From NCBI RefSeq assembly GCF_000970285.1, contig NZ_CP009516.1:847036-911035 (forward strand): a stretch of 64,000 nucleotides of DNA, in the 5' to 3' direction. This stretch comes from Methanosarcina horonobensis HB-1 = JCM 15518. Its GTDB lineage: Archaea; Halobacteriota; Methanosarcinia; Methanosarcinales; Methanosarcinaceae. The notes under the pieces are model-generated. The model was not told the origin of the DNA. It searched no databases and saw only the letters and a list, made by a program, of their open reading frames with translations. How positions within the stretch are numbered: position 1 is the first letter of the stretch; each line of letters opens with the position of its first letter. Below are positions 54,001 to 59,952 of this stretch, piece by piece. The position numbers and the translations under genes are program-made.

Positions 54001-54589
54001 ATCCTGGGAAATGCTCATTTTTTGGTCAATTTCCTTTGAATTAATTGTGGTTACCGGTGCTGATCAAACCTGATACTGGTATCTGTTACTTTTTTCTTAG
54101 AGAATGTATTTTTTTATTCTTTTTGGTAATACAAATTTTTAATATAATAACATTAAATACTATAAAGCTAAAGAAAAGTATTAAATATAAGCTAGTCATA
54201 CATATAATCTGTCTAGCGAACAGACGCAAAATAGAAAACGCCTCCTAAATCTATACACGAACTTGCAGTGCTGGAATTCCTCACCTGTAGTGCAGGCAGG
54301 TGTGGAGTTTCAGGTGCAAGGGAAGGTTAAGAAAAATTCCGGTAATTTGCGCAGAAAAATCTTTTCGGGTATTTTCCCGGGCATATGTTCTGAAAAAAGG
54401 TAATGCATCTGAGTTTTTTATGGAAAAGTCAGATTGGTTATAATTTATACTGTTGCATGGCTAACTATCATTCTGATAATTTCAAGTCGGCAAAACTATC
54501 TTTTAGCTCATCAAATCGATAATGGAATGCCATACCCGATTTGAAATTTTTATGAAAAATTGAGAATATTTGTTCTTTGATTGAGGAGC

Positions 54590-54644
54590 GAACTACCCCG
54601 CCCTGCTTTCTGATGAAAGCGAGGACTGAGCTTCCTTCGAGTAT
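54590..54644 (-). ncRNA. Putative omega-RNA scaffold at the TnpB right end
   Basis: Position directly 3' of tnpB on the same strand, with the terminal hairpin GCTTTC-ATCA-GAAAGC (54620-54605) followed by a GGGCGGGG block. TnpB nucleases use RNA from this place, the guide being the sequence just past the right end (near 54590 or lower coordinates). Extent and guide are inferred. Confidence 0.45.
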
Positions 54645-55892
54645 TTACGTCATTTGTGGATAAGGCTCGAAGAACCTTATCGACGTCGGCAAACCTGTTT
54701 GTCGAAGATTATCAGAGAATTTCTGATAGCCTGTCCACAAGGCATTCTGTGATAGGAAATTTGTCATGATATTGATTGCACTATTGCGATCTCTATCAAT
54801 GTAGTTTCCGCAATCACATTCCATATTTCGTTTCCAGAGTGGCATATCGTGGATTTTCCCACAGACATAACACGTTTTGGAAGTATAGCTTTCATCAATT
54901 TTTATTACCTTTTTACCTATAAGTTCTGCTTTATAGGCTAAAAATTCGATGAAGCGAGATAAATATCCTTGATTTTGAATGGATCTATTCATAGCTCTTT
55001 TTCTTTTTCCTTTAAGTTTTTTGGATTGAGCCATGTTTTTAACTTTCAGATTCCCAACAATAATAGTATTAGCCTTAGTATTATTGACCATTTTCTTTGA
55101 CAGTTTATGCTGGAAATCCCTCAGTTGATTAGATTTTTTCCTTTCCATTATCCTGTAATTTCCATGAAGTTTTACCCATTTCCTACTTTTCTTTTTACAA
55201 TGATCCTTTCGGGATTTGATTTTATCCATTTTTGGTTGCCAATATTTGTCAGGTCTGGGACTTTTTATTTCATGAAATTTTCCTTTAAGATTGATACAGG
55301 TTACTATTTTTGTTATTCCTGCATCTATAGTCTGATAACAACCATTATCAATATATTCAGGTGTGGCTACTTCATAAGTAACAGAAATATAGAAATCTCC
55401 TTTAGCATGGAAAGGGTCGTCATTATAGATCTCAATTTGTTTTATATTTTCAAATTTTTTCCCTATATAAAAAACAAGTTTGGTGTCATTTATTTTATGA
55501 GAGAAAGAAATGACACTACCACTCTGATAAAATCCGCTTTGATTATAAGGAATTGTTTGAAAATATTTCCTGTTTTTGAAATTTGGAGGTCTGGCATTTA
55601 GATCTCCGTTTTTCCTGAGAGCAAAAAAAGATCTATGATCCGCATCAAGTTTTTTAAGAACTCCCTGTAAAGTCTTTGAATAAACCGCTTTATATTCAGG
55701 ATTTCTTTTCTTGAGATCTGGCAATTTGTTTTGTTGATCTACATACTTGATGTTCTTTCTTTCAAGTTTCCATGCATCTTTTCTTTCGGCTAAAGCCAGG
55801 TTATACAGAGAACAACATTTATCTGAAAGTTCCCACAGGACTTTCAATTGTTCATCTGTTGGATAAATCTTAACTTTTGCCGTTAAATGCAT
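54645..55892 (-). CDS. tnpB: TnpB RNA-guided endonuclease (OrfB), rearranged RuvC site
   Basis: 415 residues. RuvC-I is TIDAGITK (Asp190), the zinc finger CYVCG (341-345) and CDCG (359-362), and RuvC-III IDRDRNSA (Asp366/Asp368). At the RuvC-II site, where most TnpBs have V-E-D-L, this protein reads TIIVGNLKVKNM, with Gly280 in place of the catalytic Glu. A glutamate appears instead at 334 in KIDESYTSKTC, where the common form is D-P-x-x-T-S. A displaced glutamate of this kind has been described for some TnpBs and Fanzor proteins, so it may still cut; otherwise it is a dead, RNA-guided binding protein. No tnpA accompanies it. Confidence 0.9.
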   Translation of the reverse strand: MHLTAKVKIYPTDEQLKVLWELSDKCCSLYNLALAERKDAWKLERKNIKYVDQQNKLPDLKKRNPEYKAVYSKTLQGVLKKLDADHRSFFALRKNGDLNARPPNFKNRKYFQTIPYNQSGFYQSGSVISFSHKINDTKLVFYIGKKFENIKQIEIYNDDPFHAKGDFYISVTYEVATPEYIDNGCYQTIDAGITKIVTCINLKGKFHEIKSPRPDKYWQPKMDKIKSRKDHCKKKSRKWVKLHGNYRIMERKKSNQLRDFQHKLSKKMVNNTKANTIIVGNLKVKNMAQSKKLKGKRKRAMNRSIQNQGYLSRFIEFLAYKAELIGKKVIKIDESYTSKTCYVCGKIHDMPLWKRNMECDCGNYIDRDRNSAINIMTNFLSQNALWTGYQKFSDNLRQTGLPTSIRFFEPYPQMT

Positions 55893-56115
55893 AATAGTAT
55901 ATAAGCAGAAGGTATATATAAGTAGGCCTTCAGAATCAGAAAAAGTTAATTGTTTAGAAGTTGACGGCTTTCATCCCCCACCTGCCAACCTGCGGCTGTC
56001 GAGGAAGGAGACTTCCCGCCTTAGAGTTAAATTTATAAGCTATTTAGCACTATAAACAGCCAGTTAACTGATTACTGTCTCAAGAATCCATTAACTGATC
56101 TGAACTTTTCATAAT

Positions 56116-56187
56116 AGGTCTGTGGTGTAGAGGATATCACTGGAGCCTCCGGAGCTCCGAACCTGGGTTCGATTCCCAGCAGACCTG
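56116..56187 (+). tRNA. tRNA-Arg (anticodon CCG)
   Basis: Cloverleaf by eye: acceptor AGGTCTG / CAGACCT (7 bp), D-arm GTGT...TCAC, anticodon stem GGAGC / GCTCC with loop CTCCGGA (anticodon CCG), T-arm CTGGG-TTCGATT-CCCAG, discriminator G. The CCA is not encoded, as usual in archaea. A TATA-like TTTATAAG lies about 85 bases upstream. Reads codon CGG. Confidence 0.93.
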
Positions 56188-56329
56188 TTTACTTTTAACT
56201 GCCTATTTAAGGTCTGGTTTTACTTCAATTTTCTTTTGGACAAAACTTTTAAAGTCTAAAATGAAATATAAAAAACAAGACATCAGTTTTATAAGAAAAC
56301 AGGATATCAGTTTTAAAGGTGCTTATATA

Positions 56330-56753: not shown

Positions 56754-58235
56754 TCACTTATTAATTGTTGGGTTGATGGGCATTTTAAAGATTCGCTTCT
56801 CGGTCACATACTTAATGATGCCTTTCAGAAACTCCTTGTCATCCTTGCTCAAGTCACAAAAGAGATGGATCAGCCCTTCGAACATTGCCTTCGTTTCGCG
56901 ACAATACAGGGGCTCAGGTCTGTGCATATCCCCAGTATGTGCCTTGTTGTTGTAGAAGCAGCCGCCTCCGCAGAAATAGCGCGCCCAGCAACTCCAGCAT
57001 TCTGGCAAATGATCCACGACCGCCCTCCAATAGTCGTTTAACCCTTCAATATGGTAGTCTGCAATATTCCCAAAACGCAATTCCTCTATCCCCACAAACC
57101 TGTGGCAGGGATAGATATCTCCGTCTGCGGAGATGGCGACCATACCTTTACCAATTCCGCATCCATAGTAGCGTTTCTGCCCGAAATCCATTTCTGCCAT
57201 GACGTGCAAGAGACCCGGCAGATAATTTTTATCGATCGCTCTTGCCCTTATAGCGGCGAGCAATTGCTCCGTTTCCTTGCGATTAAACGCCAGCATCCGT
57301 TGCAAGGCTTCTTCTCTGGCCGAGGGAATATCTGCGAGCTGCGTGTTCAGAAGCACGGGGGAAGCCTTGGTAATAAAGCAGGTTGTGAATCCAGCTCGCT
57401 CCATTCCCTCTTTGACCCGAAAAGGGTCGGCCTCACCACAAAGTGTTGCTCGACCCGTCAGGTGGGGGATAACCGCCCGCAACTTTTGGATATTTGCGGA
57501 GACCTTATCATACGATCCCTTACCGTTCTTGAAGGGACGCTGACTGTTTTGGTATTCGGACGGACCGTCAAAGCTGATAAAGGTTCTTATCTTTTCTTCC
57601 TTGAGAAATGTGATGATCTCCTCATTCAACAACGAACCGTTAGTTGTGATGCTGAAGAAGACCTGCTTCCCTTTTCTCATTCCCTGTCTTTTGGCGAAAG
57701 GCACGATTTTTCTCATCAAGGAAAAGTTCATCAAGGGTTCTCCCCCGAAAAAACTGATACTTACGCTTTCGGCTTTTTTGGAATTTTCCATCAGCCAGTC
57801 AACCGCTCGGAACGCTGTTTCTTCCGTCATCATTCCTTTCCCAGCATAATGCCCCCCGCCACCATAGCAATAGACACAGCGCATATTGCACTCTTGCGCA
57901 AGGAAAAGGGAGATGTTAACCACCGGATACTCGAATTCCTCGCATGATCCTATCGACTCGCCATCCGCCACAGCCTCGGACGTCTCATCCTCCTCTCCGG
58001 CAACCAGCTTTAATTTGCGCAACTCCTCCATGGCGGATTCCGGAATCAGACAGCCGAAAGCTGAATCCACCTTCTTGATCATAGATGCCAACCGGGCGGA
58101 GATTGGGGAGACTGCCTTATTGCCCACGTCGACCAGATAATGTGCATTATCATGTTCGAAAATATGGTATTCTCGCAACACGACGTTGCCGAAGTACCTC
58201 CGCCCTTCATACTCTATTTCGTAAGAGCCTAACAT
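56754..58235 (-). CDS. Radical SAM/SPASM peptide maturase
   Basis: 493 residues. Residues 1-80 form a small N-terminal domain (EYHIFEHDNAHYLVDVGNKAV) typical of peptide maturases. The radical SAM motif is CNMRCVYC (Cys116, 120, 123), with FFGGEPLMN (163-170) downstream. The SPASM domain has the complete seven-cysteine pattern: Cys359, 377, 413, 416, 422, 426, 445, binding two auxiliary 4Fe-4S clusters. Such enzymes cross-link or otherwise modify a peptide. Next to an NHLP-leader precursor (58570-58869) it forms a RiPP pair. AAGGAGG precedes the ATG. Base composition is visibly richer in G+C than flanking genes, indicating acquisition. The exact chemistry is unknown. Confidence 0.9.
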   Translation of the reverse strand: MLGSYEIEYEGRRYFGNVVLREYHIFEHDNAHYLVDVGNKAVSPISARLASMIKKVDSAFGCLIPESAMEELRKLKLVAGEEDETSEAVADGESIGSCEEFEYPVVNISLFLAQECNMRCVYCYGGGGHYAGKGMMTEETAFRAVDWLMENSKKAESVSISFFGGEPLMNFSLMRKIVPFAKRQGMRKGKQVFFSITTNGSLLNEEIITFLKEEKIRTFISFDGPSEYQNSQRPFKNGKGSYDKVSANIQKLRAVIPHLTGRATLCGEADPFRVKEGMERAGFTTCFITKASPVLLNTQLADIPSAREEALQRMLAFNRKETEQLLAAIRARAIDKNYLPGLLHVMAEMDFGQKRYYGCGIGKGMVAISADGDIYPCHRFVGIEELRFGNIADYHIEGLNDYWRAVVDHLPECWSCWARYFCGGGCFYNNKAHTGDMHRPEPLYCRETKAMFEGLIHLFCDLSKDDKEFLKGIIKYVTEKRIFKMPINPTINK

Positions 58236-58569: not shown

Positions 58570-58869
58570 TTAGGTAATTCCCTCGCCTTGCCAACAACTA
58601 CAACCTATGACATGGAATCCACTGTTTTGCGCAATTAATAGAAGCTTTGCACTCTTGAATTCTTCTGAAACCGGCTTCAATGGTATGATCATATGGACCA
58701 ATTTTTCGGTGTTCTCTACTGCCCGCACCTCCAAACCCGCCGGCACGTCAACTCCTTCTTCCTTAAGCACAGCCATCGTGTCTGCGAGTAACCGCTGTTT
58801 GAAGGACTCGTCATTCCAAGCTTTAGTAATAACCTGACCTATCTTTTTGCCTTGTTCTTGCTTATTCAT
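58570..58869 (-). CDS. NHLP-leader RiPP precursor peptide
   Basis: 99 residues from ATG 58869, which has GGGGGG 5 bases upstream; the outer start at 58914 has none. Residues 5-66 are the nitrile-hydratase-like leader family (TIGR03793 type): GKKIGQVITKAWNDESFKQ, then LKEEGVDVPAGLEVRAVENT and LVHMIIPL. After a short linker the core region is SGFHVIGCSCWQGEGIT with Cys90, Cys92 and Trp93. The maturase lies downstream on the same strand. No peptidase or exporter is adjacent, so processing must use proteins encoded elsewhere or none. Together this is a RiPP biosynthetic unit rare in archaea. Confidence 0.88.
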   Translation of the reverse strand: MNKQEQGKKIGQVITKAWNDESFKQRLLADTMAVLKEEGVDVPAGLEVRAVENTEKLVHMIIPLKPVSEEFKSAKLLLIAQNSGFHVIGCSCWQGEGIT

Positions 58870-59952
58870 TATACCCCCCTCTTTAGAATTTTCTTTTACC
58901 TTAAAGAAACACAACTATAAACGTTCGTATTTACAATAAGTTTTTAGAAATTTCAGCATTTATAGCTGCAATATCTCGTTAGGTTGTATCATTGTTGTAT
59001 TATAAAACTATGATTATATTAATTTAATTAATATTCCTTAAGCTTTCCCATATAATATTTTTGAGAAAGAACATGATTCTACCTTCGTGCAAAGAATCGA
59101 TTCAAATGTAAAGTACATAAAGTCACTTTAGGTTTGTAATATTAAGCATAAGATCCAGTCAATAGTGTCCTAATGTAAATATAGTATGAGAAAATTTTAT
59201 TTACTACTTATAACTCTTGAAGAGAATTGAGGCTCATAGGCATAGGAGTTGTAACGCTAACTAAAAAAAATGAAAAGAAAAGCTGATTTGGTATTTTTAA
59301 TTGAACACGTGTTTTAATGTATCTTGAGTGACTCTCAAATTCCAACGTGCAAATTTATAAACACTTCTGGAAACAACTGTTTATGGATCTAATGTAGCAG
59401 TAAAACAGTCGAATCCTCGAAGAGTTCATGTACCTCAAATAACGTTTTTTTCTTTACAATCAGTAAATAAAGATAGCAGATCTTTTTTAATTTTTAATAT
59501 GATTATAAAGTCCTGCAAAATGTACGCTTTTATCGTATAAGCTTTCAATCATATTCAGGTTTTAAGATAAAACCTGTGCATTGCTAAATGTGGCTTGACA
59601 ACTTAAAGCGAATTATTTTGGGATAAAACACTGCTTTCTCTTTCCCTAGCTCTTGTTAAACTGTCATCAATACGAGAGTTTACAGTTTTACATATTGGCC
59701 CAGTACCAGCTAAGCTGTCGCCAAGGTGAAAACGAATATGCTTCCATTAAACATCACTAAGTTCTTCGAAATGTATGATCTCCCCCATATAATATAAGAT
59801 TGGATTACATATTATTTTGAAACAGGGTCATCGATAACCCCATATCAAAAGTAAAAAAGTATGAGATACACATAGGAGCACTTTCTATATCTCTTCTGTT
59901 AGCGTTTTTACTCACTCAAAAAGTATATGAAAATATGATTTATTGGTTTTTT
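58870..59952. other. Long gene-free AT-rich region upstream of the RiPP genes
   Basis: Contains the promoter of the NHLP gene: a TATA-like TTTATAG on the minus strand (58919-58913 region) immediately preceded by ATACGAACGTT (58930-58920). A 48-codon minus frame at 59603-59746 (IRFHLGDSLAGTGP ... RARERES) has no start codon and might be a relic. The rest shows no gene. Confidence 0.4.

Follow-up and report, generated by a model that had tools for sequence, protein, structure and literature searches.

The window analysed here, a 64,000-nt stretch of a closed 5.02-Mb genome whose nearest named relatives are Methanosarcina, very probably encodes an RNA-guided TnpB with the Fanzor-type arrangement of the active site (the Ealt layout, in its non-DPG form), which would act through a D190/E334/D368 triad and which lies in an IS605-type element without tnpA. 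Because the glutamate missing from RuvC-II has a replacement at the second place known from Fanzors and related TnpBs, we take the protein to be, most probably, an ordinary RNA-guided DNA nuclease that maintains its small transposon at its site. Judged by its sequence, it belongs to a known kind, the Ealt non-DPG TnpBs, already described.

Active-site layout of the TnpB protein

The open reading frame at 54645–55892 (minus strand, as are all features of the element given below) encodes 415 aa from an ATG start without internal stops and was assigned as tnpB from the reading frame itself, Pfam, NCBIfam and alignment. The protein matches PF01385, PF07282 and PF12323 above cut-off (OrfB_IS605, Cas12f1-like TNB and HTH_OrfB domains) and NCBIfam guided_TnpB at 203.7 bits against a cut-off of 100, and thus has the OrfB_IS605 domain, TNB zinc ribbon and RuvC fold by which a TnpB is recognised. 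D190 lies in the RuvC-I DAG motif (TIDAGIT; codon at 55323–55325, invariant in two alignments) and D368 in RuvC-III (YIDRDRNSAI; 54789–54791, also invariant). A sequence-only reading of this DNA had held that the RuvC-II glutamate is replaced by glycine and that a glutamate 54 residues further on is a candidate substitute. Both observations stand: G280 (GGG, 55053–55055), at the canonical position, falls within NTIIVGNLKVKNM (IIVGN, no glutamate), and E334 (GAA, 54891–54893), the alternative catalytic glutamate by the Ealt definition (PMC10711439), within VIKIDESYTSKTCYVC (IDESYTSKTC), with 334 − 280 = 54. The same reading was right that E334 takes the place of the proline of a D-P-x-x-T-S motif, because E-type relatives have D/N-P-x-x-T-S at that place. 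Six residues separate E334 from the zinc ribbon's first CxxC (E334-SYTSKT-CYVC, the first cysteine being C341), and D190, D368 and the CxxC pairs are all retained.

Yoon and co-workers defined two active-site layouts, Ecan, in which the glutamate precedes the zinc finger by about 50 residues, and Ealt, in which it does so by six (ExxxxxxCxxC), and divided Ealt proteins into a DPG group (Fanzors and pro-Fanzors) and a non-DPG, DΦG group (PMC10711439). The E334-SYTSKT-C341 spacing matches the Ealt definition exactly. Like the non-DPG Ealt TnpBs of that study, the protein has a glutamate six residues before CxxC, none at the canonical RuvC-II site and a RuvC-I motif other than DPG; unlike them, it reads DAG, with an alanine outside the paper’s Φ list (DLG, DIG, DAG or DTG are found among relatives, DLG/DIG in the close ones), and it comes from a methanogen, in a copy that has no tnpA. 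Before a TnpB without a RuvC-II glutamate is called dead, the residue six places N-terminal to its zinc finger should be read.

The two layouts exclude each other among relatives; the sequence-only reading had suggested looking for covariation of E334 with loss of Glu280. Counting relatives from the host's family in which positions 280 and 334 were both readable, all 42 with G280 also have E334, while none of the 25 with E280 does (P, R, K or Q at 334); position 280 is G in all Ealt relatives and E in all Ecan ones. Every aligned relative has one of the two glutamates and one only, with the sole exception of the very divergent L064, in which a glutamate lies two columns off. Proteins from viral contigs divide likewise into 10 G/E (Ealt) and 66 E/non-E (Ecan). 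D190, G280, E334 and D368 are invariant across 23 Ealt sequences with identity down to 26%, so that the motif pattern is not due to chance. In a FastTree phylogeny built after removal of the diagnostic columns and their neighbours, 25 Ealt sequences are set apart from the rest by a single split (SH support 0.70), and the same split with one Ecan sister, L112, added has an SH support of 0.997. Since the Ealt sequences fall on one side, this pattern suggests one ancient switch kept by selection rather than many independent events, repeated co-evolution or local repair, and E334 is a fixed family trait and not the rescue of a residue lost in the Methanosarcina protein. The special character that the first reading implied for this TnpB is accordingly lower than suggested, E334 being fixed family-wide.

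Seven of the viral-contig Ealt TnpBs (L101, L104, L106, L132, L150, L151 and L158) read TTQxNxLTG instead of TSKxCxxCG, and in these the relocated glutamate is kept while the first zinc-ribbon CxxC is seemingly lost.

An AlphaFold2 model of the protein (26-sequence alignment, pLDDT 84.2, pTM 0.66) has E334 following immediately on the final RuvC strand (328–333), with D190 closing strand 186–190 and D368 opening helix 367–382. In a structural study of Fanzor, the catalytic glutamate sits on the loop that connects the fifth strand with the TNB domain, and the modelled position of E334 fits the same place by topology. The highest TM-score (by query length) among PDB structures was that of mimivirus Fanzor2 (L79 / ISvMimi1, 9b0l; 0.70), followed by ISDra2 (8h1j; 0.66), and a phmmer alignment with 9b0l puts E334 opposite a glutamate. 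The two proteins are thus alike in fold, Ealt layout and glutamate position, but share only about 20% sequence identity, and the Fanzor lineage has DPG and an IS607-type context. Taken with the ExxxxxxCxxC spacing and the mutual exclusivity of E280 and E334, the model topology gives good support to the earlier idea of a relocation as in Fanzor-related TnpBs.

Element boundaries, target site and predicted guide RNA

The tnpB gene lies in an insertion element of 1439 bp at 54588–56026, TnpB-only and of IS605 type, whose ends were placed by comparison with copies at other genomic locations, where flanks and guides differ. In L202 and L210, which represent the same tRNA-upstream region in other Methanosarcina, the element is absent and TTTAA is joined to TCCTCAATCAAA, that is, it runs straight into the first 12 bases of the predicted guide. 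Since this junction consists of exactly the two flanks, the element must span 54588–56026, and it was inserted 3’ of TTTAA without target duplication, as an IS605-type element requires. The TTTAA target site, predicted to be the TAM, is at 56027–56031 by copies and empty sites alike. The left end, with a subterminal palindrome (55955–56026), was recognised by its match to the left ends of the tnpA-carrying copies L003/L004, to which it is 95% identical over about 80 bp. A possible archaeal TATA box, CTTATATATA (55913–55922), may be read 20–30 nt ahead of the tnpB start.

The element had also been described as adjoining tRNA-Arg(CCG). The tRNA gene is indeed close (56115–56188, 88 bp past the left end at 56026), but its adjacency appears incidental, the target having been TTTAA. 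Integration directed by the tRNA was rejected, since the insertion point is a TTTAA on the upstream side of the tRNA, 88 bp away, and relatives retain an intact empty site there. The sequence TTTATAAGCTATTTAGCACTATAAACAGCCAGTTAACT (56031–56060), upstream of tRNA-Arg(CCG), shows strong conservation in Methanosarcina and resembles the promoter of the tRNA gene; the element sits just outside it.

At the other end, the right end and predicted omega RNA scaffold (54588–54707) overlaps the 3’ end of tnpB and terminates in GGGGTAGTTCGC. A structure of 37 pairs is common to the final 130 nt of 12 related elements; in it, 94.5% of cells are paired (83.1% when shuffled) and 51 cells are doubly changed (shuffled mean 15.0), with a covariation score of 0.361 against 0.147 in the comparison and at most 0.083 when slid. 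This covarying structure ends at the element boundary, and part of the predicted scaffold lies inside the 3’ end of tnpB; an omega RNA usually overlaps that end of the gene. The covarying right-end RNA supports an RNA-guided function. The sole match in an Rfam search was the tRNA.

Adjacent flanking DNA outside the element would supply the guide, predicted from the empty sites L202 and L210 to be the 20 nt TCCTCAATCAAAGAACAAAT (54568–54587); it begins at 54587 and runs downward (TCCTCAATCAAAGAAC). The TAM with the first 11 guide bases (TTTAATCCTCAATCAA) has no match with zero or one mismatch elsewhere in the genome, and the natural target of the predicted guide is therefore probably the element’s own empty site.

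We infer the following scheme for cleavage, for the use of E334 and of the guide, and for mobilisation in trans. D190, E334 and D368 would form the RuvC metal-binding triad, with E334 taking over the work of the missing glutamate by analogy with Fanzor. The 3’ part of the tnpB transcript and the right end would fold into the omega RNA, guided by flanking DNA (TCCTCAATCAAA...), and the RNA–protein complex would cleave the empty site (TTTAA plus guide match) left by excision or present on an element-free allele, whereupon repair would copy the element back, as extrapolated from ISDra2 (PMC8612924) and SisTnpB1 (PMC10640517). Mobilisation itself would depend on TnpA supplied in trans by sister elements of the same genome. 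SisTnpB1 of Sulfolobus islandicus is likewise archaeal, of IS605 type and served by a TTTAA TAM, and is itself an active RNA-guided cutter, but it has a canonical glutamate, E271, which mutation has shown to be needed (PMC10640517). ISDra2 TnpB shares the element layout and a right-end RNA with a guide from the flank, and cutting of the donor joint has been proposed for it; it differs in having the canonical glutamate, a TTGAT motif and tnpA (PMC8612924).

Sister copies and canonical-type elements with similar ends

A Y1 HUH TnpA is absent from 54588–56026, as the first reading had noted. Three copies in the same genome (L003, L004 and L005) exceed it in length by about 400 bp and encode a Y1 transposase overlapping the tnpB start (Pfam Y1_Tnp, 140 bits); the present copy is therefore a tnpA-less derivative, like L022, L025 and L026. 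Besides these three tnpA genes the genome has other Y1 genes, about 31% identical, and L219, which was the one looked at, lies between unrelated sequences. A scan of genome contigs found only six close relatives.

The same genome holds ten or more near-identical copies of an Ecan TnpB about 30% identical to the Ealt one: L010–L019 encode proteins of about 384 aa that are 97–98% identical to each other, with L020 at 84%. These canonical-E elements (L010–L020, on G000:C1; left ends at about 1363–1433 and right ends at about 2668–2714 in locus coordinates) have no tnpA, nor would one fit between left end and tnpB, which lie roughly 140 bp apart. Their left ends are 85–87% identical to those of the Ealt elements over about 75 bp, the last 36–48 bp of their right ends are 90–97% identical, and the TTTAA site is common to both; this identity falls inside the range found when Ealt elements are compared with one another (80–95%). 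The left end is present at 20 canonical-type and four Ealt-type places. Two stretches of about 65 bp (G000:C1:77447–77513 and 2038719–2038781), in which a 31-bp left-end stretch passes straight into a right-end stretch, are minimal ghost elements.

Because Ecan and Ealt elements share their ends and TTTAA, both layouts seem to use one transposase, which is the simplest reading of these sequences. We lean slightly towards the fuller claim that one genome maintains two opposite catalytic layouts with interchangeable ends and a single TTTAA, and that a TnpA carried by Ealt elements alone moves both. A limited literature search found no published report of ends or a transposase shared by Ealt and Ecan elements, and we regard the presence of both layouts with common ends and TTTAA in one genome as mildly new. 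If true, the genome would offer a natural experiment in which two catalytic layouts can be compared directly, with the same transposase and the same TAM. An archaeal Ealt TnpB family in Y1-type elements, with defined ends, a predicted TAM and RNA scaffold, and canonical TnpBs with the same ends beside it, is a setting in which the effect of the relocated glutamate on cutting (for example, single-strand side cleavage) can be asked with other variables nearly constant.

Condition of this copy and other readings

The dN/dS ratio of tnpB is about 0.14–0.16, which shows purifying selection; as an average over long branches, it is also compatible with recent decay. At positions that are otherwise fixed, the protein has only a few changes of its own (H86, R87, I134, T188 and I305), all outside the catalytic residues. 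G280 is followed by N (GN), most relatives having GD and some GK or GE, and the right end reads GTTCGC rather than the GTTCAC of all compared relatives. On account of the GTTCGC end and the GN in RuvC-II, this particular copy may be impaired.

A stronger form of this doubt is that the copy is recently inactivated or immobile, keeping an inherited fold and motifs but transposing or cutting poorly owing to its GTTCGC end and lack of tnpA. The right end is unique among the copies compared, the nearest sister in the same genome (L002, 78% identity) has an in-frame TAA, and another copy (1325255–1326094) is broken into pieces. We nevertheless think this explanation unlikely, as the reading frame is full-length and free of stops, comparison with the nearest intact relative gives a dN/dS of 0.14, the scaffold is largely intact, and the catalytic and zinc positions are unchanged.

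The sequence-only reading had offered as its own alternative a nuclease-dead regulator, that is, an RNA-guided repressor like TldR which binds its target without cutting, and the absence of the canonical glutamate is indeed common to both (PMC13418256). TldRs, however, have lost nuclease function and are tied to other genes (PMC13418256), whereas here the known alternative site is filled in every relative, the D190/E334/D368 triad is complete and invariant, the zinc ribbon with its CxxC pairs is intact, and both mobile-element ends and the guide-RNA scaffold are present. The copies are scattered with differing flanks and guides, so that no stable link to a non-transposon gene is seen; the guide matches only the element’s own empty site, and there is no linked cargo or partner gene. 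We consider a dead repressor very improbable and reject it. Least credible of all, and likewise rejected, is that this is a Fanzor-lineage (pro-Fanzor) protein in an archaeon, beyond a mere Ealt TnpB: Ealt is common to both and, by TM-score, Fanzor2 9b0l comes nearest among solved structures, but RuvC-I reads DAG (DLG/DIG in relatives) and not DPG, and the element family has a Y1 TnpA and not the IS607 serine recombinase, pro-Fanzors being described as cyanobacterial IS607 TnpBs (PMC10711439).

Two genes near the element deserve mention on their own account. The one at 56754–58235 (minus strand) encodes a radical SAM/SPASM protein whose best match, below cut-off, is the rSAM_nif11 maturase, and the one beside it at 58570–58914 (minus strand) an NHLP leader peptide RiPP precursor (TIGR03793, above cut-off); together they are likely to be a peptide-modification cassette in a methanogen.
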